Under the pieces are notes generated by a model. It did not search any database. It saw only the letters and a list, made by a program, of their open reading frames with translations, and was not told where the DNA came from. Position numbers and translations under genes: made by a program. Positions 3,160-16,309 of a stretch of 64,000 nucleotides of DNA are shown piece by piece (within the stretch, counting starts at the first letter, position 1; the number at the start of each line of letters is the position of its first letter). The DNA is from Planctomycetota bacterium (GTDB lineage: Bacteria > Planctomycetota > Planctomycetia > Planctomycetales > Planctomycetaceae): assembly GCA_016872645.1 (NCBI GenBank), contig VGZH01000012.1, positions 1 to 64,000 on the forward strand. The letters run 5' to 3'.

Positions 3160-4605
3160 TCAAGGCGGACTCAGCAACTTCCGCAAGCGCTGCAGATCGG
3201 CCTGCAAGCGCTCGATCGGTTGAGCGGCAAAATCACGCGGGCTACGAAGCCCAGGCTGGAAGTTCAACGTTTCATTCATCGAGTCGAGCACAGCCTGAAT
3301 CTGGCGGTCCTGTTCTGGGTCTGTTTGCGTGCTGGCGACGATCGCGTGTTGCAGCGCGTTCAAGCTCAGAAAGAGTTGCGTGGCCGAATCCCAATCGCGA
3401 TTCACAAGGTTTAGGCCATCATCGGTCACGAAGGCGAGTCGCATCGCCGCGAGCGATTTCGCGGAGAGCACGTCCTTGGCTGCATCGTTGCGGTTGAATC
3501 GTTCAGCTGCCGAACGAAGTCCCTGCGCGATGGCGATGGCTTCGCGCGAGATCGCATCGGCTGGCAAGACTGGAGACTCAAACCGTGACCGCAGCTTCGT
3601 CAATTCGGATTGCGGGATTGAGTTCTCTGAACCGACGACTCGCCGAGCGAGCGGATCGAGCATCGCATACGGCCATGCGTTCCAGGCGAACGAACCTCGC
3701 GGGCGTTTCGCCGCGTCTTTCGACTGCCACCAGCTTGCGGATCGCAAATCGTGATGGCAGGCGAAGCAGTTCCATTCGGCAAGTTCTGGCCACCTGGCGG
3801 GAGTCACTTTCGCCAGCTCCGCACGCTGGCTGAGCAATTCCAAAGAACGCTGTGCCGCGACCGTCTGGCCGACAGTCCACAGCTTGGCCTCGAAGACAGA
3901 TCCTTTCTCGACGGCCGGATGCCGTTTCGCATCGACTTCGGCAGGCCAATGCTTAGGCCAGTTGGCGTGGAACGTGGAGAGTTCAAAAAACAGACGCGGG
4001 TGTCCGGCGGCGATCAAATCGTGATTGACGTCTCGGCCGGGGCCGCCGACATGGCAATCGGCACAGGCATTGGCTCGCGTCAGTACGTCGGTCAGGTCGC
4101 GATAACCTCGACGCTGTTTATCCGCCGCAGATCGCAGCTTCCAGTCGCTGCGGACATGCTCAGTCAGCCAGCGCTCTGCGGGACCGTGGCATTGCTCGCA
4201 ATCGACACCGGCGAGCGGAGTGCGACCGGAAATTGAAGTCAGCTTGGACTCAACGCTGGTTGCTGGCGAGTGGCAGTTCAAACAGACGGCAGACTCATGT
4301 GCCGGCTTCGGCAGGTTGAGCAGTGCGGCCATTTGTCGCGAGAGATCGTTTTCCAGGACCGAGTAGGCTCGGGAATGTGGGTCGCGCGCGGACCAGATCG
4401 GGAACTCAGAGCCAACGAATTTGTGGCCGGCGAGTCCGCCGTGACAGGCGGCAGTCGCACAGGAGGCGCTCCCGACGAGTTTGGGTGGCGCGTCTTCGGC
4501 AACGGTGTCATCGGCGCTGAGGCAGACGACAATGCAGAGTGCCGATTGCAGAGTGCAAAGTGCAAAGTGAGTGGCACGCGCGGCCATCACTCTCACATTG
4601 TTCAT
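3160..4605 (-). CDS. Secreted multiheme c-type cytochrome (cytochrome c554-like)
   Basis: Four CXXCH motifs (CLNCH, CEQCH, CADCH, CFACH) plus one CX4CH (CATAACH). Likely start at MNNVRVMAAR with a hydrophobic signal peptide. ORF track runs to 4701. Confidence 0.75.
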   Translation of the reverse strand: MNNVRVMAARATHFALCTLQSALCIVVCLSADDTVAEDAPPKLVGSASCATAACHGGLAGHKFVGSEFPIWSARDPHSRAYSVLENDLSRQMAALLNLPKPAHESAVCLNCHSPATSVESKLTSISGRTPLAGVDCEQCHGPAERWLTEHVRSDWKLRSAADKQRRGYRDLTDVLTRANACADCHVGGPGRDVNHDLIAAGHPRLFFELSTFHANWPKHWPAEVDAKRHPAVEKGSVFEAKLWTVGQTVAAQRSLELLSQRAELAKVTPARWPELAEWNCFACHHDLRSASWWQSKDAAKRPRGSFAWNAWPYAMLDPLARRVVGSENSIPQSELTKLRSRFESPVLPADAISREAIAIAQGLRSAAERFNRNDAAKDVLSAKSLAAMRLAFVTDDGLNLVNRDWDSATQLFLSLNALQHAIVASTQTDPEQDRQIQAVLDSMNETLNFQPGLRSPRDFAAQPIERLQADLQRLRKLLSPP

Positions 4606-4640
4606 TTTGCATTCTGCACTCTGCACTTTGCATTTCCTCT
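4531..4640. repeat. Heptad repeat inverted pair (TGCAAAG/CTTTGCA type)
   Basis: TGCAGAG TGCCGAT TGCAGAG TGCAAAG TGCAAAG ... TTTTGCATTCTGCACTCTGCACTTTGCATTT. Confidence 0.8.
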
Positions 4641-6196
4641 CACCGCACAAACGGGCCGTCCCACTTGTTCTTGGAGCGGTCGTGATAAACGTGGCACTCA
4701 ATGCACAACGTCCGAGCGCCGCGGTTTACGTTTGAGAGCAGGTCTTTCAACGATTCGTTTGGCGGTGCCTGTGGCGATTCCGATTTAGGAACGCTGTCGG
4801 CTTTGATTCCGTCGAGCCATTCGGCGGGGCGGTGAGCGTGACAGGCTCGACAAATGTCGATCGAAGGGATCAGCACGTCGCCGGTGTTTTTGCTTTGAGC
4901 CACATCGGCGTGGCAGACCGTGCAACTCAGCAGGCGATGTGGTTCGTGATGGAATTTGCTGTGCAGCAGCCAGCGCGACGGGATGTTCGTCGGGACAATC
5001 TTCCAATCTGCGATCGCAGTCGGAGATTTGTCGGCGACTGGTTCAACTTCGTGGCAGTAACGACAGCCGCCGGTGGCTTCGTAGCCGAATTGGCTGTGTC
5101 GATGCTGCTGAGCAATCTGCTCGGCCTTGGTAACGTCATCGAGAACGGCCTTGGCTTGATCCTTGGAGAGTCTCTGGAAGTCGCGATGGCCGGGGAGCGG
5201 GCGCGACGGCTCATCGCTCGGGAGTCCGACTTCCGACTTCCGACTTCCGAATTCCCTCAGCGTGTAGGTCTCTGTGAGGAATCCGCGGACGATGTCCGGC
5301 GTCTGGTGCGGTACGGCTTGGCCGGGGAAGCGTTCGTGGTCGAAGAGCAGCGGATGGCATTCACGACAGTGTCGCTCGAACGAGATCGGCTTGAGGAATC
5401 GCCCTTCCTGGTCCGGTTCGTGGCAAACTTCGCAGCTGCGAGACAGGTCTGTTAACTTGCGGTCCTTGCCGATCAGCCCGTGAATAAGTTTTCCATTCGC
5501 GTCGTATTCCGCCTTGAGATGCGCGGCGTGGTTGAAGCGAATGCGGCCTCGGTCCTGCCACCGCGAAGCCGCGTCACCGGGACGTTTGAAGTTCTCGATC
5601 GCGAGATTGACTCCGTGCTTGGCGTTTGGAGGCTCCGACGCCGCGTCCTTCAGCAGCGTCTTCAGTCGAAACTCGGGATGACCTTCGCGTTCATCGAATC
5701 GAATGACACGCTTTGCGAAGACCTCGCTCACGCCGTGAGTCGTTTTCAATTCGGTGTGACAGGCGATGCAGTGGCGACTGCTGGGCCTGGTGAGCATGTC
5801 GGTCCCTTCGTGCTCCTGATGGCAGGCCGCGCACGAGATGTCCTTGTGAGCCGGAATCTGATTGGCGTGATGCTCGGCGACACGGTGGCAGGTCTCGCAT
5901 TTCTTGTTGTCGATCGAATGGGCGTCGTCAGAGAACGCGACCAGTCGTTGCAGCGGAGTCCACGTCGTATGACAGCGCCAACATTCGTTCTCGATCAACC
6001 GATGCGGCGTGGTCACGTCACCGGCCTGATAGATCTGATTCTCCCCCTGCGAATGCTGGAGCATCAACCACATCAGCGAGCCGACGCCTGACCACAACGC
6101 CAGCCACCACGCCGCGCGACGCTGGCGGTTCGGCTGCCGATGCACGTTGATGTCCACGCGACTGGAAAGCTCGCGGCTGGAACGCAGCATCTTCAT
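4640..6196 (-). CDS. Decaheme c-type cytochrome
   Basis: Ten CXXCH motifs (CWRCH, CETCH, CAACH, CIACH, CEVCH, CRECH, CRYCH, CTVCH, CRACH, CIECH) and an N-terminal TM segment. Start chosen at the ATGA overlap with the upstream gene. Confidence 0.8.
   Translation of the reverse strand: MKMLRSSRELSSRVDINVHRQPNRQRRAAWWLALWSGVGSLMWLMLQHSQGENQIYQAGDVTTPHRLIENECWRCHTTWTPLQRLVAFSDDAHSIDNKKCETCHRVAEHHANQIPAHKDISCAACHQEHEGTDMLTRPSSRHCIACHTELKTTHGVSEVFAKRVIRFDEREGHPEFRLKTLLKDAASEPPNAKHGVNLAIENFKRPGDAASRWQDRGRIRFNHAAHLKAEYDANGKLIHGLIGKDRKLTDLSRSCEVCHEPDQEGRFLKPISFERHCRECHPLLFDHERFPGQAVPHQTPDIVRGFLTETYTLREFGSRKSEVGLPSDEPSRPLPGHRDFQRLSKDQAKAVLDDVTKAEQIAQQHRHSQFGYEATGGCRYCHEVEPVADKSPTAIADWKIVPTNIPSRWLLHSKFHHEPHRLLSCTVCHADVAQSKNTGDVLIPSIDICRACHAHRPAEWLDGIKADSVPKSESPQAPPNESLKDLLSNVNRGARTLCIECHVYHDRSKNKWDGPFVR
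5221..5258. repeat. Heptad repeat inside the decaheme CDS
   Basis: CCGACTT x3 then CCGAATT, exact 7-bp period. Confidence 0.8.
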
Positions 6197-10401: not shown

Positions 10402-11502
10402 CTAAATCATGTTGATGACGCGTTCCGCCAGCCCCTTCTCGCCGAGGACGATGTTGAGCTTGCCGGTCGATGCGATCTTCTCCAGGACTTCCAGCTCACG
10501 CAGACGCATGAGCGTCGGGTTGTCCTGAAGCAACTTCGCGGTGTTCGACTGGCTGCGGATCGCGGCCGTCTCTTCGCGACGCACGATGAGGTTGGCCTCG
10601 GCCGCCTTCTTGGCTTCCGTGACCTTGTTCATCAGATCTTTCATGTCGCCCGGCAGAATCACGTCGCGGATTCCGAACGAGACAACTTCCAGACCCAACT
10701 GTGCGGCTCGCGGACGGACGAGCTGCTCCAGCTCGCGCACGACCGATTCCTTGTCGGCCAGGAACGGGTCGAGTTCGCGCGTGCCGAGGATCGCTCGCAA
10801 CGCCAACTGAGCCTCGCGGTACAGAGCCTGACGGAAGTCGTCGGCCACGCCCAGCGCCTGCCGCACGTCCGTGACGCGAAACGTCACAACGCCGTTCAGA
10901 CGCAGCGTCACCTTGTCCGCCGTCATGATCTCCTGACCGCTGACATCCAGCATCGTCTCGCGAACGTCCACCGGGACCAGCTTGATCGTCGCGATGTTCT
11001 TCCAGAACGCATAACGCCCCGGCGACAACACCGCCACGATCTCGCCATCCTGAAACAACACACCCTGCTGACCCGCCTCAACGCTCAGCACGTCGAGAGC
11101 CTGGCCCACCAGCGTGGACTTCAAGATGACCGGCAAGTCCGCGTGCTCGAACCGCACCCGCCGCGCGTCGATCACCTCGACCCGCACGTCGCGGAACTTC
11201 GTCCAATACGCGAACTGCCCCGGCGGCAACACATGGCTGAACCGCCCATCAACCCACACCAGCCCGCGCTGGTAGTCCTTCAGGTCAACGACAACAGCTC
11301 GCCCGTCGAGCGCCCCCGACTTCACGATCACATCCAGCTTCTCATGCGTCAGCCACGGAGCCCGCTGCGACACAACATCGACGGTCACTCGACCGAGCGG
11401 ATCGAAGAAGCGATGCGTCCCCTCGCCGAGCAGCCCGACGAACTCCCCTCGCCGGAACAACAGCCCGACCTCAAAGCTGCGAATGAAGATCTTCTTGAAC
11501 AT
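10402..11502 (-). CDS. Slipin/SPFH-domain protein
   Basis: SPFH/band-7-like sequence with a C-terminal coiled region (KVTEAKKAAEANLIVRREETAAIRSQ). Confidence 0.8.
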   Translation of the reverse strand: MFKKIFIRSFEVGLLFRRGEFVGLLGEGTHRFFDPLGRVTVDVVSQRAPWLTHEKLDVIVKSGALDGRAVVVDLKDYQRGLVWVDGRFSHVLPPGQFAYWTKFRDVRVEVIDARRVRFEHADLPVILKSTLVGQALDVLSVEAGQQGVLFQDGEIVAVLSPGRYAFWKNIATIKLVPVDVRETMLDVSGQEIMTADKVTLRLNGVVTFRVTDVRQALGVADDFRQALYREAQLALRAILGTRELDPFLADKESVVRELEQLVRPRAAQLGLEVVSFGIRDVILPGDMKDLMNKVTEAKKAAEANLIVRREETAAIRSQSNTAKLLQDNPTLMRLRELEVLEKIASTGKLNIVLGEKGLAERVINMI

Positions 11503-11633: not shown

Positions 11634-12045
11634 ATTTCAAACACCCTCGGGCGGCGAACCGCGCGACTGTCACAGACGATCTCGGCGGGAGGACGTTTTG
11701 AAAGGGCGCGCTGACTCGGACCCCGACCATGCTGGCGTCGCGTTCGTGTTTTCGTGGAGCACGAGTTCCTCGTGCTCTCGTTCAGACACGATCAATTCGT
11801 GCCCCACGGATTCGCGACGCGACACACGGCCGTTCGCCGAGCCTCACGCCAAATCAATATCGTCCCCTCAAAGCCCCGATCGCTGCTGCTGGTCTCATCG
11901 TCATGGCACTTCGTGACCCAGATTTCTCTGCGATCACGTCGCGCCTCAGATTGCGAGTCACGGAATGACTCGCCGACGAAACCAGCCGACAACCGTCCGG
12001 CCGCCTCCCTTGGGTTTTCTGGTAAACGCTTTACAGGCGTTTGGC

Positions 12046-12115
12046 CGTGTGGACGGGATTCGAACCCGCAACTTTCAGGTTAAGGGCCTGATGCTCTCCA
12101 ATGAGCTACCCATCG
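12046..12115 (-). tRNA. tRNA-like, anticodon CTT (Lys), mispaired acceptor stem and C33
   Basis: D-stem GCTC/GAGC, loop CCCTTAA closed by TCAGG/CCTGA, T-arm GCGGG-TTCGAAT-CCCGT; acceptor CGATGGG/CCACACG has three internal mismatches. Confidence 0.6.
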
Positions 12116-12213
12116 ATGCCGCTCCGTTATTAATCCAGTTAGGAACACGTCACGCTGACCGACCTCTCGGAGCCAACGCGCCCCTGGCCGGGCGTCATCA
12201 ACACGCTGCCTAC

Positions 12214-12266
12214 TCGTGGCCGACGCAGCTTGCGTCGGCTGCGGATGCTGGCAGCATCCGCCACGA
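12214..12266. repeat. Three-way-junction palindrome
   Basis: TCGTGG ... CCACGA enclosing two hairpins, CCGACGCAGCTTGCGTCGG and GCGGATGCTGGCAGCATCCGC. Confidence 0.7.
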
Positions 12267-12271
12267 AAAAA

Positions 12272-12336
12272 GATGCCGGTGAGAGTCGAACTCACTCAGT
12301 GCTGCTTTGCAGGCAGCCGCCAAACCGTTTGACATC
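12272..12336 (-). tRNA. tRNA-Cys(GCA)-like with shortened D-arm
   Basis: GCTGC-CTGCAAA-GCAGC anticodon arm, GTGAG-TTCGACT-CTCAC T-arm, acceptor GATGTCA/CGGCATC; only about 12 nt between acceptor and anticodon stem. Confidence 0.65.
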
Positions 12337-12347
12337 GGCGTCGGTGC

Positions 12348-12404
12348 ATTTTCGATTTTTGATTGCTCAATCACACTAAATCGAAAATCATCAATCAAAA
12401 ATTC
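12348..12404. repeat. Heptad repeat hairpin (TCGAAAA/TTTTCGA type)
   Basis: ATTTTCGATTTTTGATTG ... AATCGAAAATCATCAATCAAAAAT. Confidence 0.7.
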
Positions 12405-12411
12405 CAAAGGC

Positions 12412-12481
12412 GTCCTCGCCAGGAATCGAACCTGGTCCGCGACCTTCGCAGAGTCGCGTGCATCCGCCACACCCCAAGGAC
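12412..12481 (-). tRNA. tRNA-Arg(GCG)
   Basis: Acceptor GTCCTTG/CGAGGAC, D-stem GTG/CAC, loop CTGCGAA, T-arm CCAGG-TTCGATT-CCTGG. Confidence 0.75.
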
Positions 12482-12545
12482 ACATGAGTCGAGAGTCATG
12501 CAGCCTGCATCTGTCATAGCTCTCGTCTCTCAGCTCTCGACTGCA
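12482..12545. repeat. Heptad-like repeat hairpin (CTCTCGA type)
   Basis: GTCGAGAGTCATGCAG ... GCTCTCGTCTCTCAGCTCTCGACTGCA. Confidence 0.55.
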
Positions 12546-12547
12546 TT

Positions 12548-12617
12548 GCCCCACCGAGGAGTCGAACCTCGTCCGACAGTTTCGAAGACCGTCATGCGTC
12601 CCTCACACTCGCAGGGC
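12548..12617 (-). tRNA. tRNA-Arg(TCG)
   Basis: Acceptor GCCCTGC/GTGGGGC, D-stem GTGT/ACGC, loop CTTCGAA, T-arm ACGAGG-TTCGACT-CCTCG. Confidence 0.75.
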
Positions 12618-12663
12618 CCTGCCGAGGAATCGAACCCCGTTCCGCTGTTTACAGGACAGCCAT
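12616..12663 (-). pseudogene. Truncated tRNA-Thr(TGT)-like (anticodon arm, T-arm and 3' acceptor only), C33
   Basis: GCTGT-CCTGTAA-ACAGC and CGGGG-TTCGATT-CCTCG present; no D-arm or 5' acceptor between the upstream CDS stop and the anticodon stem. Confidence 0.6.
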
Positions 12664-12673
12664 GTCATGCAAT

Positions 12674-13483
12674 TCATTGATCGTCGGTCAGATGTTGTCG
12701 GTCGTAGCCTCGGCGGCGAACGGTCGTCGTCGTGATGAATTCGTCTTGCTCGCTCAGCGACACCGGTTCAACCGTGCCGAGCGGCACCGAGGCAACCATC
12801 ATCGAGTTCACGACTCGGCGTTTGTCATCGCACGGATTGACGATCGTCGCCGTGTGCAACACGCCTTGCCATGTCGTCCCGTCCTTTGACAACGCCGCCG
12901 AACTGTTGTTGATCAACAGCACCTGAGCGGCCTCGTTCGAGAACGCTTCCACGCGAGTCGCATACGGCCTGAGCAACTCTGCTCCAGGGCCGAACATCGG
13001 ATTGTGTTGTTCGAGGAACTCATTCGGCGTGAGCCGCATGTCGCGAGCACACCGCGAGTAATCCGCCAAGACGACCTCCGAACGGACTTCCGACGGTTCG
13101 TATCCGAGCACCAGAAAGCATTCGTCCGGCCCACCGTCCCGATGCAGTTTCGTCGTGGTCTGCTGATCGAATCTCGCCGCCGACAAGAACACCAGTTCTC
13201 GTTGCCGCCGCGCTTGATGAACCTCCTGCAATTGACGCTTCAACGAAACCATGAACCGACGCAACGACTCCGACGACGCGTTGCTTCCAAGATTCAGCAA
13301 GCAGAAACCGGGGCTCGAAAGGTCCGTTCGACAGACCAGCCGATACACGTCGTTCGCGAGTTCATCGGTCACGTTTCCCGACGACACGTCCCGAACGTAA
13401 TCGCGCGCCAGCCACGGAGTCGCCGATTCTGTGTGCATCACGTCACCCAATCGAAAATCACAAATCCTAAATCGAAAATCCAA
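12674..13483 (-). CDS. Hypothetical protein in tRNA array; possible 2OG/Fe(II)-dioxygenase-like fold. Likely start is the internal MHTESATPWLARD
   Basis: Long ORF with HRDGGPDECFLVLGYEP (HxD) and a later H-x11-R-x3-S (HTATIVNPCDDKRRVVNS) spacing; family not recognised. Confidence 0.5.
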   Translation of the reverse strand: MDFRFRICDFRLGDVMHTESATPWLARDYVRDVSSGNVTDELANDVYRLVCRTDLSSPGFCLLNLGSNASSESLRRFMVSLKRQLQEVHQARRQRELVFLSAARFDQQTTTKLHRDGGPDECFLVLGYEPSEVRSEVVLADYSRCARDMRLTPNEFLEQHNPMFGPGAELLRPYATRVEAFSNEAAQVLLINNSSAALSKDGTTWQGVLHTATIVNPCDDKRRVVNSMMVASVPLGTVEPVSLSEQDEFITTTTVRRRGYDRQHLTDDQ

Positions 13484-13484
13484 A
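13449..13484. repeat. Heptad repeat AATCGAA/AATCACA/AATCCTA/AATCGAA/AATCCAA
   Basis: Direct reading, exact 7-bp period. Confidence 0.75.
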
Positions 13485-13486
13485 GT

Positions 13487-13557
13487 GCCTCGCCTGGGAA
13501 TTGAACCCAGTCCGACGGATTAAGAGTCCGCTATGCCAACCGTTACACCCACAAGGC
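13487..13557 (-). tRNA. tRNA-Lys(CTT)
   Basis: Acceptor GCCTTGT/GCGAGGC, CGGA-CTCTTAA-TCCG, T-arm CTGGG-TTCAATT-CCCAG. Confidence 0.85.
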
Positions 13558-13594
13558 AAATTGTTTTGTGGCGCACGCAGCTCGCGTGCGAGGT

Positions 13595-13663
13595 GACAGC
13601 GTGAGGATTCGAACCCCATCGGGCGGCTTTGGAGACCGCTTGCTCTCCCAGGAGCACACTGCC
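13595..13663 (-). tRNA. tRNA-Trp(CCA)
   Basis: Acceptor GGCAGTG/CGCTGTC, D-stem GCTC/GAGC, GCGGT-CTCCAAA-GCCGC, T-arm TGGGG-TTCGAAT-CCTCA. Confidence 0.8.
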
Positions 13664-13667
13664 GAGG

Positions 13668-13753
13668 AATTTTCGATTTTTGATTTTCGATTTGGGATTG
13701 AAGACGAAGTCCTCAACCCCAATCGAAAATCGCCAATCGAAAATCACAAATTA
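13668..13753. repeat. Heptad repeat hairpin
   Basis: GATTTTTGATTTTCGATTTGGGATT ... AATCGAAAATCGCCAATCGAAAATCACAAAT. Confidence 0.75.
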
Positions 13754-14350
13754 GCGCAGCTCGACGTTCCAGTACGCCTCGCTGAGGAACTTCGACCAGC
13801 TTTCGATCCGCACCTCGTGTGAGGCGTAGAACGCTCGCCAGGCCGGTTGAGCCGGCTTGTGCTTGAGCTTGAAACCGGCCTGATCCGGCGTGCGATCGGC
13901 CTTGCGTGAGTTGCACGCGACGCACGCCAGCACGCAGTTGGTCCAGGTCGACTCGCCACCCTGCGAACGCGGGATGACGTGGTCGATCGTCAGCTCATCG
14001 CCACCCGGCTGAGCTCCGCAGTACTGGCAAGTGAAGTGGTCTCGCTTGAAGAGGTTTCTTCGCGAGAACGTCACCGCCTGCCGCGGCAGCCGGTCGTAAT
14101 GAGTCAACGTCACGACCTCCGGCACTCGCAGTCGGATGCGGCCTGCCTGGATGAACGGTTCCCCGTCGCACGGCCGCAGTTCCGACCAGTCGTCCCACGA
14201 GTACAACTGAAAGTCGCTCGGATCGACCACGCGAGCCGCCTTACCAAACACCTTCACCAGCGCCCGAGCCACCGTCGAAACCGTGATCGGCTGCCAGTTC
14301 CGGTTCAAAACCAGAGTCGGTCGAGTCAGCGTGAGTGATGCGGCAGTCAT
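13751..14350 (-). CDS. HNH endonuclease
   Basis: CQYCGAQ ... LTIDHVIPRSQGG ... NCVLACVACNSRKADRTP. Confidence 0.9.
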   Translation of the reverse strand: MTAASLTLTRPTLVLNRNWQPITVSTVARALVKVFGKAARVVDPSDFQLYSWDDWSELRPCDGEPFIQAGRIRLRVPEVVTLTHYDRLPRQAVTFSRRNLFKRDHFTCQYCGAQPGGDELTIDHVIPRSQGGESTWTNCVLACVACNSRKADRTPDQAGFKLKHKPAQPAWRAFYASHEVRIESWSKFLSEAYWNVELR

Positions 14351-14360
14351 GATTGATCTC

Positions 14361-14463
14361 CAAACGACGAATGACGAAATACCCAATGACGAAAGAAGCT
14401 CGCATGACCAATGACGAAAGGTGTGATCGAAGCCGATTTCGAAATTCGTGCTTCGTCATTCTC
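14361..14463. repeat. Heptad repeat (AATGACG/AAA type) with inverted half
   Basis: GACGAATGACGAAATACCCAATGACGAAA ... CCAATGACGAAAGG ... TTCGTCATTCT. Confidence 0.6.
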
Positions 14464-14467
14464 CAGG

Positions 14468-14541
14468 GTGTCCGACGGGAGTCGAACCCGTACTTCGGCT
14501 GTCACAGAGCCACGTGCAAATTCCGCTACACAACGGACACC
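14468..14541 (-). tRNA. tRNA-His(GTG)
   Basis: Acceptor GTGTCCG/CGGACAC with extra G-1:C73, TGGCT-CTGTGAC-AGCCG, T-arm ACGGG-TTCGACT-CCCGT. Confidence 0.85.
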
Positions 14542-14559
14542 ATCGAAAAACAACACAGT

Positions 14560-14632
14560 GGCCGAAGTGGGAGTCGAACCCACACACATCAGGCTCTCGA
14601 CCTGACCGCTTTGCCAATTTGCGTACCTGGCC
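14560..14632 (-). tRNA. tRNA-like, anticodon GAG (Leu) with short variable loop and C33
   Basis: TCAGG-TCGAGAG-CCTGA, 5-nt variable loop, T-arm GTGGG-TTCGACT-CCCAC, acceptor GGCCAGG/TTCGGCC. Confidence 0.65.
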
Positions 14633-14698
14633 GTTCAATTCACGAACGCGAAGCGTCAGCGAGGACGAACGCTTCACAAGACTCAACTCAAACCAGTA

Positions 14699-14764
14699 GC
14701 GGGTCCGGGAGTCGCACCCGGCCTCCGAGGTTTATGAGACCCCGCTGAGCACCCGCTCACCCGC
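14699..14764 (-). tRNA. tRNA-Met/Ile2-like (CAT) with short D-arm and atypical T-loop
   Basis: GGGGT-CTCATAA-ACCTC, T-arm CCGGG-TGCGACT-CCCGG, D-arm GAGC-GGGT-GCTC. Confidence 0.7.
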
Positions 14765-14765
14765 G

Positions 14766-14812
14766 TCATTTCTTCTGACCTCTGACTTCTGACCGCTGAC
14801 TTCTCTTCAATG
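14766..14812. repeat. Heptad repeat (CTTCTGA type)
   Basis: CTTCTGA CCTCTGA CTTCTGA CCGCTGA CTTCT. Confidence 0.75.
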
Positions 14813-14884
14813 ACCAAGGGGAGATTCGAACTCCCAGGCTCGGCGTTCTAAGCGCCGCGTGTCTGCCGATTGCACCACTTGGAC
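14812..14884 (-). tRNA. tRNA-like, anticodon TAG (Leu) with short variable loop
   Basis: CGGCG-CTTAGAA-CGCCG, 5-nt variable loop AGCCT, T-arm GGGAG-TTCGAAT-CTCCC. Confidence 0.75.
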
Positions 14885-15011
14885 GGGTGAGTCGATCGCC
14901 AGTCTCGAAAGCCTCGGCGCCTTGGGGCGAGGCTCTCGACTTTTCTCTTGGAACTTTCGACTCAGTGGGTCGTGGTCGACTCTCTACTCTGGACTCTCAA
15001 CTTCTCAAGGC

Positions 15012-15094
15012 GGAAGCCGTGGGACTCGAACCCACATGCGACAGAGTCGCCACCTGTCTTCCAAACAGGTTCCTCATCTGGCCGGTTGGCTTCC
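15012..15094 (-). tRNA. tRNA-Ser(GGA)
   Basis: Acceptor GGAAGCC/GGCTTCC, CCTGT-TTGGAAG-ACAGG, long variable arm GCGAC-TCT-GTCGC. Confidence 0.9.
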
Positions 15095-15333
15095 GTGATT
15101 CATCGCTTTCGATCTCGAACTGTGCGCCGACACCGACAAATTCCCATCCCAACGATTTCAGCAACGGCGTGAGTACCCCCGCGCGATTGCGTTGATTCAC
15201 GACGGCCACTCGATTTTCGTGGTCAGACGGTGATCGCTTCGGCCCTGGAGGATTGTCGTCAGAATTGGTCTCCTGATCGGCAGGCATGTTGGTTGTCCTT
15301 TCTGGATTGGTCCTGCGTTGTCGTGCCTTTGTC

Positions 15334-15495
15334 GGGTGGCCGGGTCCGGCCAAACGTGAGGCTCCATCGGAGTCGCTCTGGCGGTGCTCCCAGCGACCGT
15401 CAGGCGACGCGGAGGAACGAGGTCTCGCTCACGTTCCGTTCCGCAGCATCCCAATGGGCACAGTCGACCTTCCGCCGTCATCGCCCCGGCCACCC
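15334..15495. other. Structured non-coding element closed by an 11-bp perfect inverted repeat
   Basis: GGGTGGCCGGG (15334-15344) and CCCGGCCACCC (15485-15495) with further internal complementarity; orientation unknown. Confidence 0.5.
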
Positions 15496-15550
15496 GCCGG
15501 CATGCACAACGAATTCGTCGCTTGGCTCAGAGAGCCAAGCCAATTTCAGA

Positions 15551-15635
15551 GGAAGCCGTGGGACTCGAACCCACATGCGGCTCAACGCCGCGACCTGTTT
15601 TCAAAACAGGTTCCTCATCCGGCCGGATGACTTCC
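15551..15635 (-). tRNA. tRNA-Ser(TGA)
   Basis: CCTGT-TTTGAAA-ACAGG, long variable arm, acceptor GGAAGTC/GGCTTCC. Confidence 0.9.
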
Positions 15636-15645
15636 GTTGCTGACT

Positions 15646-15715
15646 TCGGGGAGAAGGATTCGAACCTCCATTGCCGGATTCAAAGACCGATGTCCGACCA
15701 TTAGACGATCCCCGA
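15646..15715 (-). tRNA. tRNA-Gln(TTG)
   Basis: Acceptor TCGGGGA/TCCCCGA, loop CTTTGAA, T-arm GGAGG-TTCGAAT-CCTTC. Confidence 0.85.
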
Positions 15716-15717
15716 GA

Positions 15718-15788
15718 GTGTCTTGTGGGAGTCGAACCCACCTGACCAGCTTGGAAGGCTGGCACCTCTGCCGCTCGGCCAAAGACAC
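15718..15788 (-). tRNA. tRNA-Gly(TCC)
   Basis: Acceptor GTGTCTT/AAGACAC, CCAGC-CTTCCAA-GCTGG, T-arm GTGGG-TTCGACT-CCCAC. Confidence 0.9.
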
Positions 15789-15842
15789 GCGTTTTCAAAT
15801 CACGAATTCCAAGAACCAAAACCTGACGCCACTCATCCAGGC

Positions 15843-15930
15843 GGAAGGAGAGGGAGTCGAACCCTCAAGACATCGCAGGACGCTCGACCGCTTTCGAGGC
15901 GGCTGCCATCGCCAGTTGGCTTGCCCTTCC
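15843..15930 (-). tRNA. tRNA-Ser(CGA)
   Basis: Acceptor GGAAGGG/TCCTTCC, GCCGC-CTCGAAA-GCGGT, long variable arm. Confidence 0.9.
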
Positions 15931-15948
15931 GTATTCCCAAACCAAAGC

Positions 15949-16018
15949 TCCGGAGCAAGGACTTGAACCTCAATCGTCTGGTTAACAGCCAGCCGTTCTA
16001 CCTTTGAACTACTCCGAA
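15949..16018 (-). tRNA. tRNA-Asn(GTT)
   Basis: Acceptor TTCGGAG/CTCCGGA, D-stem GTTC/GAAC, CTGG-CTGTTAA-CCAG. Confidence 0.9.
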
Positions 16019-16123
16019 ATGAGACCACCTACTCCTATATCACTTATTGGACTCATAAGATTTTGTCGGCGCATATTATCTGCGCAGACAAACACCAAGA
16101 TTTAAAAACAACATTAGCGCAGT

Positions 16124-16196
16124 CAGGACGGTGGGATTCGAACCCACGCTCTCCGGCACCCAAGGCCGGCGGATTTCCAGACTTTCCCACATCCTG
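16124..16196 (-). tRNA. tRNA-Pro(TGG)
   Basis: Acceptor CAGGATG/CGTCCTG, CCGGC-CTTGGGT-GCCGG, T-arm GTGGG-TTCGAAT-CCCAC. Confidence 0.88.
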
Positions 16197-16236
16197 ACGG
16201 TCAGACGAATTGTGCGAACAGAACTCTGCGAGCAGT

Positions 16237-16309
16237 CAGGGTGGCTGGATTTGAACCAGCACATTCCGGCAGCCGAAGCCGGCGGACTACCAGGTTATCC
16301 AACACCCTG
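16237..16309 (-). tRNA. tRNA-Pro(CGG)
   Basis: Acceptor CAGGGTG/CACCCTG, CCGGC-TTCGGCT-GCCGG. Confidence 0.9.

Follow-up and report, generated by a model that had tools for sequence, protein, structure and literature searches.

A predicted Fe(II)/2-oxoglutarate oxygenase of an unnamed sequence family, probably carried as cargo in a planctomycete tRNA array

The window, that is, the whole 64,000-nt stretch of planctomycete DNA analysed here, contains a tRNA array on its minus strand (positions 12045-16309), in which a tRNA search recognised at least 17 tRNA genes, all in one orientation. These tRNAs are low-scoring, and 46 further tRNAs are found elsewhere in the same genome. A protein gene is embedded in the array and flanked, as first described, by tRNA-Lys(CTT) on its upstream side (13485-13557, minus strand) and by a shortened tRNA-Thr(TGT) downstream (12616-12667, minus strand). 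The latter is a 3′ remnant, a pseudogene in which about 17 nt of the 5′ part are missing, just after the stop codon of the embedded gene; the tRNA-Thr(TGT) gene is intact in the genomes G003, G005, G006 and G010. Beyond tRNA-Lys lie tRNA-Trp(CCA) (13592-13663, minus strand) and the HNH endonuclease gene of the array (13751-14350, minus strand; PF01844, E 5.8e-16), a gene with homologues in 163 out of the 170 genomes from the same bacterial family. An SPFH/Band_7 (slipin-like) gene (10402-11502, minus strand; PF01145, E 9.1e-26) is a neighbour of the array. Its place next to a tRNA array is conserved in G010, G005 and G380, and it recurs on a 94-kb contig (L184) that has been classed as viral. 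Two minor features of the array concern its repeats: positions 15012-15100 hold a partial second copy of tRNA-Ser(TGA), probably a tRNA relic, which shares a 49-nt repeat (88%) with 15589-15637, and ATTTTCGATTTTTGATT-type repeats occur in several spacers (12348-13751) as well as in the Lys-Thr spacer of G005, which lacks the gene.

The embedded gene was initially taken as a minus-strand open reading frame at 12674-13483, and in its translation the HRD motif and HTATIVNPCDDKRRVVNS are both present at the positions claimed for them. The frame itself stands, but not its TTG start at 13483: the most likely start is the ATG at 13438, the Met with which L006, the relative in G003, also begins, and for this reason a coding sequence of 254 aa (12674-13438, minus strand) was adopted, on the basis of the ORF, its homologues, dN/dS and the common start. 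The TTG, which adjoins the 3′ end of tRNA-Lys, was rejected as an over-extension, the resulting protein of 269 aa gaining 15 residues from a stretch of spacer (13439-13483, minus strand) that is a copy of the array spacer repeat. The G003 relative is 79% identical to the window protein, with a dN of 0.13, a dS of 0.78-1.08 and a dN/dS of about 0.12-0.17. Given this relative and its low dN/dS, the presence of family members in 28 of the 170 genomes from the host's bacterial family, and the retention of four putative catalytic residues, the frame is a real gene under purifying selection and not a chance ORF.

Three of these residues would bind iron. The putative HxD motif is encoded by codons H99-R100-D101 (13136-13144, minus strand) and the putative third ligand by codon H195 (12854-12856, minus strand), within a predicted strand at residues 194-199. 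The fourth, R208, a putative ligand of the 2-oxoglutarate (2OG) carboxylate, opens the stretch R208-V-V-N211-S212 (12803-12817, minus strand), 13 residues after H195 and at the start of a predicted strand (209-218). In the alignment of the 57 sequences compared, H99, H195 and R208 are invariant, D101 is kept in 56 and replaced by E in one distant relative, and N211 and S212 are each conserved in 56; R89, Q93, G112, E114, D126, N177 and N178 are likewise invariant. The family would thus possess the HxD/E...H iron triad of the Fe(II)/2OG superfamily throughout the 57 sequences, and R208 would supply the Arg or Lys that holds the 2OG carboxylate from strand VIII. In the AlphaFold model of the window protein, H99 falls in a bridge that precedes a core strand, and the succession of H99, the H195 strand and the R208 strand is the order expected of the superfamily. 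Only the spacing between the motifs had been set too wide in the first-pass annotation (110-125 residues), as 96 residues separate H99 from H195 and 109 separate H99 from R208.

Structure prediction points in the same direction. AlphaFold modelled the window protein with a pLDDT of 89.9 and a pTM of 0.88, and a relative with 32-35% identity to it with a pLDDT of 93.7 and a pTM of 0.90. Foldseek searches of the PDB with the window model returned almost exclusively Fe(II)/2OG dioxygenases (CarC at E 8.6e-6 and CsiD at 4.7e-5, probability 1.00); with the relative's model, for which CsiD reached 6.2e-6, all of the best 50 matches were known or putative 2OG dioxygenases. The types matched are CsiD/GlaH, CarC, clavaminate synthase and AtsK, and the TM-scores are moderate (0.4-0.56). 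The two models therefore agree on a predicted double-stranded beta-helix, the fold that had been put forward for checking by structure prediction. With the conserved HxD...H...R set and two independent models that match almost only 2OG dioxygenases, the original guess of a 2OG/Fe(II) oxygenase is borne out, and the assignment to the Fe(II)/2OG-oxygenase class, although predictive, is well supported. That the protein is instead a beta-helix which has given up Fe or 2OG binding, or else a relative of the cupins with some other chemistry, appears highly improbable: HxD is replaced by HxE in one distant relative, but the ligand set is otherwise invariant in the 57 sequences, and HxE is a known iron-binding variant, present in clavaminate synthase.

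Sequence searches, on the other hand, left the protein without a family. Searched as a single sequence, the window protein had no match in Pfam, NCBIfam, PHROGs or the PDB; none of 11 family members tested scored above the cut-off of any Pfam model, NCBIfam had no model for the window protein, and profile searches of the PDB found no match for the family. CsiD/GlaH, the glutarate 2-hydroxylase (PDB 6gpe, 8cdf), is the best structural match of the relative's model and the second of the window model, and shares with the oxygenase its HxD...H iron ligands, the downstream Arg and the character of a small soluble 2OG hydroxylase; however, GlaH has 325 aa and is encoded beside lhgD and gabD, while the window protein has 254 aa and its gene lacks conserved neighbours. 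No similarity emerged when hhalign was run against GlaH and TauD of E. coli, a weak comparison because the templates were single sequences. CarC, the best match of the window model, and clavaminate synthase (PDB 1nx4, 1drt, 1ds0) have the same fold, and CarC is also of similar size (247 aa), but no sequence similarity to either was detected and the homologues of the oxygenase are not set in a conserved gene cluster. The TauD/AtsK alkylsulfatase-type dioxygenases have the fold, the facial triad and the Arg in common with it, but not a detectable TauD sequence similarity, nor does any Pfam model match the oxygenase. Because of the missing Pfam, NCBIfam, PHROG and PDB sequence matches and the negative alignments to GlaH and TauD, the oxygenase is, by these sequence comparisons, a separate and unnamed family within the superfamily, rather than a member of TauD or CsiD. 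In other words, it is a new unnamed branch of a well-known kind of enzyme in an unusual location.

What such an enzyme would do can be sketched from its superfamily. H99, D101 and H195 would hold Fe(II), and R208 the 2-oxoglutarate; the reaction of O2 with 2OG would yield succinate and CO2 and leave an Fe(IV)=O species to hydroxylate or desaturate the substrate. The substrates of CsiD, CarC, clavaminate synthase, AtsK and BBOX are small carboxylates, amino acids or sulfates. These are the nearest folds, and by analogy with them, from which the substrate class is read, the most likely substrate would be a small polar metabolite, placed for oxidation by the invariant R89, Q93, E114, D126, N177 and N178. 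We consider it probable that the protein is a soluble, single-domain, acidic small-molecule 2OG oxygenase, with a predicted double-stranded beta-helix of the CsiD/CarC/clavaminate synthase/TauD type, which landed in the array as cargo, even if the moderate TM-scores and the missing sequence-level link to CsiD or TauD count against this explanation.

The family is distributed in a patchy manner. Apart from the 28 genomes of the same bacterial family, it is found in 58 of 398 genomes sampled from the class, in three Verrucomicrobiales genomes and in one viral record, usually as a single copy per genome and in a few cases with an in-frame stop; the 32 sequences checked are acidic (pI 4.6-6.2). 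A conserved 2OG oxygenase family that spans two bacterial phyla and a phage is thus covered by none of the family libraries searched, and naming it makes it accessible to assay. The viral record (IMGVR_UViG_3300020172_001601, 340 kb; L175/L181-L183) gives 55 tRNA matches, 52 of them above the cut-off, and also encodes GlnRS, Ro60-type, SPFH and gp32-like proteins. Its oxygenase is 54% identical to the planctomycete copy of G395, which points to an exchange of the gene between phages and bacteria. From here it could be argued that the oxygenase is a horizontally moving gene useful to or against phages, with an auxiliary metabolic or counter-defence role, brought into the genus by a phage-borne or phage-like tRNA array, and the patchy spread as well as the similar HNH and slipin genes that accompany tRNA arrays on contigs classed as viral would fit this. 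However, just one viral contig with the oxygenase was found and the phage and plasmid collections searched held no copy, while the 94-kb 'viral' contig with a relative of the window array may be host DNA, so that we regard this account as quite unlikely. As a separate observation, in G447 a NUDIX domain is fused in frame to the oxygenase (L033 531-1670, minus strand); being the sole case among the loci examined, the fusion was set aside as a clue to the substrate.

The position of the gene had led the first-pass annotation to suggest an array-linked, tRNA-modifying role, and the genomic context of the family does not support it. In a survey of 59 oxygenase loci from 59 genomes or records, two lie in a tRNA array, those of the window and G003, which belong to one genus and share the same site between tRNA-Lys and tRNA-Thr; across lineages, the association with arrays (2/59) is therefore not a recurrent one. 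In G010, G006 and G005 the gap from tRNA-Lys to tRNA-Thr measures 41, 47 and 87 bp and is devoid of the gene. Elsewhere, G590 has a single tRNA-Arg(TCT) 50 bp upstream of its oxygenase gene (L139 1149-1961, minus strand), two further loci have a single tRNA at 2.6-4.8 kb, and almost all of the others are without a tRNA within 1.5-10 kb; in the bacterial family, the flanking stretches examined from the remaining 26 carriers are free of tRNAs. The supposition that homologues never found near tRNAs would disprove the idea thus comes out nearly, though not strictly, with 57 of 59 loci outside arrays. Gene neighbours are conserved in close relatives only, the signals obtained being close-relative synteny and reverse-frame artefacts. 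As for the enzyme itself, the top 50 PDB matches include, for neither of the two models, any AlkB or JmjC (TYW5-like) protein, the types known to act on tRNA; the nearest folds are those of small-molecule oxygenases.

A tree of the HNH protein sets G000 apart as outgroup to the compared members of the genus (support 91/97, short alignment), which suggests that the oxygenase in the array was either present early and lost several times, or moved between arrays. The array association is essentially one event, and by itself the position of the gene gives no support to a tRNA function. In the cargo explanation, a free-standing gene, patchy in planctomycetes and Verrucomicrobia and present also in one phage, would have entered the tRNA-Lys/tRNA-Thr spacer of a mobile-type array, once or by exchange between arrays. 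As it has the same orientation as the array, it would probably be co-transcribed with it, without acting on its tRNAs, and the array would be a mere landing site and perhaps a transcription unit. The site also shows that tRNA arrays take up extra protein genes. Two facts were counted against the oxygenase as cargo, namely that its position is kept across a deep split in the genus, and that a related array has RNA-processing genes.

Both facts were also taken in favour of another reading, by which the oxygenase acts on tRNA, a translation factor or a ribosomal protein and owes its place to that function, being one of the repair or modification enzymes of an array that serves as a translation-stress or anti-tRNase island. 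The gene is embedded and co-oriented in the arrays of two genomes deeply split within the genus, related arrays carry the HNH gene, and the array of G380 has RNA ligase (PF09414) and DUF4291 genes among its tRNAs. Moreover, the slipin gene beside the array recalls Anabaena, where a repressed 26-tRNA operon, inducible by translation stress, is under a repressor that also controls rtcB, a slipin gene and an HNH gene (PMC10272220). The tRNA array units and this trn operon resemble the window in their long runs of co-oriented, low-scoring tRNAs, the embedded HNH gene and the nearby slipin, but what is available of these sources reports no oxygenase and does not cover planctomycetes (PMC5966550, PMC10272220). 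The 340-kb phage, with about 50 tRNAs and its GlnRS, Ro60-type and SPFH proteins, could be added to the same side. On the other side, tRNA arrays hold only two of the 59 loci, the gene is missing from sister arrays, the main tRNA cluster of the phage (70-106 kb) is more than 100 kb from its oxygenase, the members sampled are acidic, and the nearest folds are small-molecule enzymes, all of which makes this reading unlikely. In a broader form, a new 2OG oxygenase family would respond to tRNA-damaging stress by modifying or repairing tRNA or some other component of translation, and would be carried by tRNA-rich mobile elements, both bacterial tRNA arrays and jumbo phages; to this we assign a small chance. 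A tRNA-modifying role of the oxygenase is possible but unproven, and the RNA-metabolism cargo of G380, the Anabaena operon and the tRNA-rich phage may serve as leads for a role in translation.

The array of G380 deserves attention on its own account. In L086 (G380:C44:19000-30000), the DUF4291 and RNA ligase genes (3282-3875 and 3973-4749) lie among the array tRNAs, in the same orientation and between tRNA-Ser(GGA) and tRNA-His, and they are stronger candidates for tRNA-repair cargo than the oxygenase. Since an array so near in the tree carries an RNA ligase, array cargo becomes a place where tRNA-repair or anti-tRNase functions can be sought and tested.
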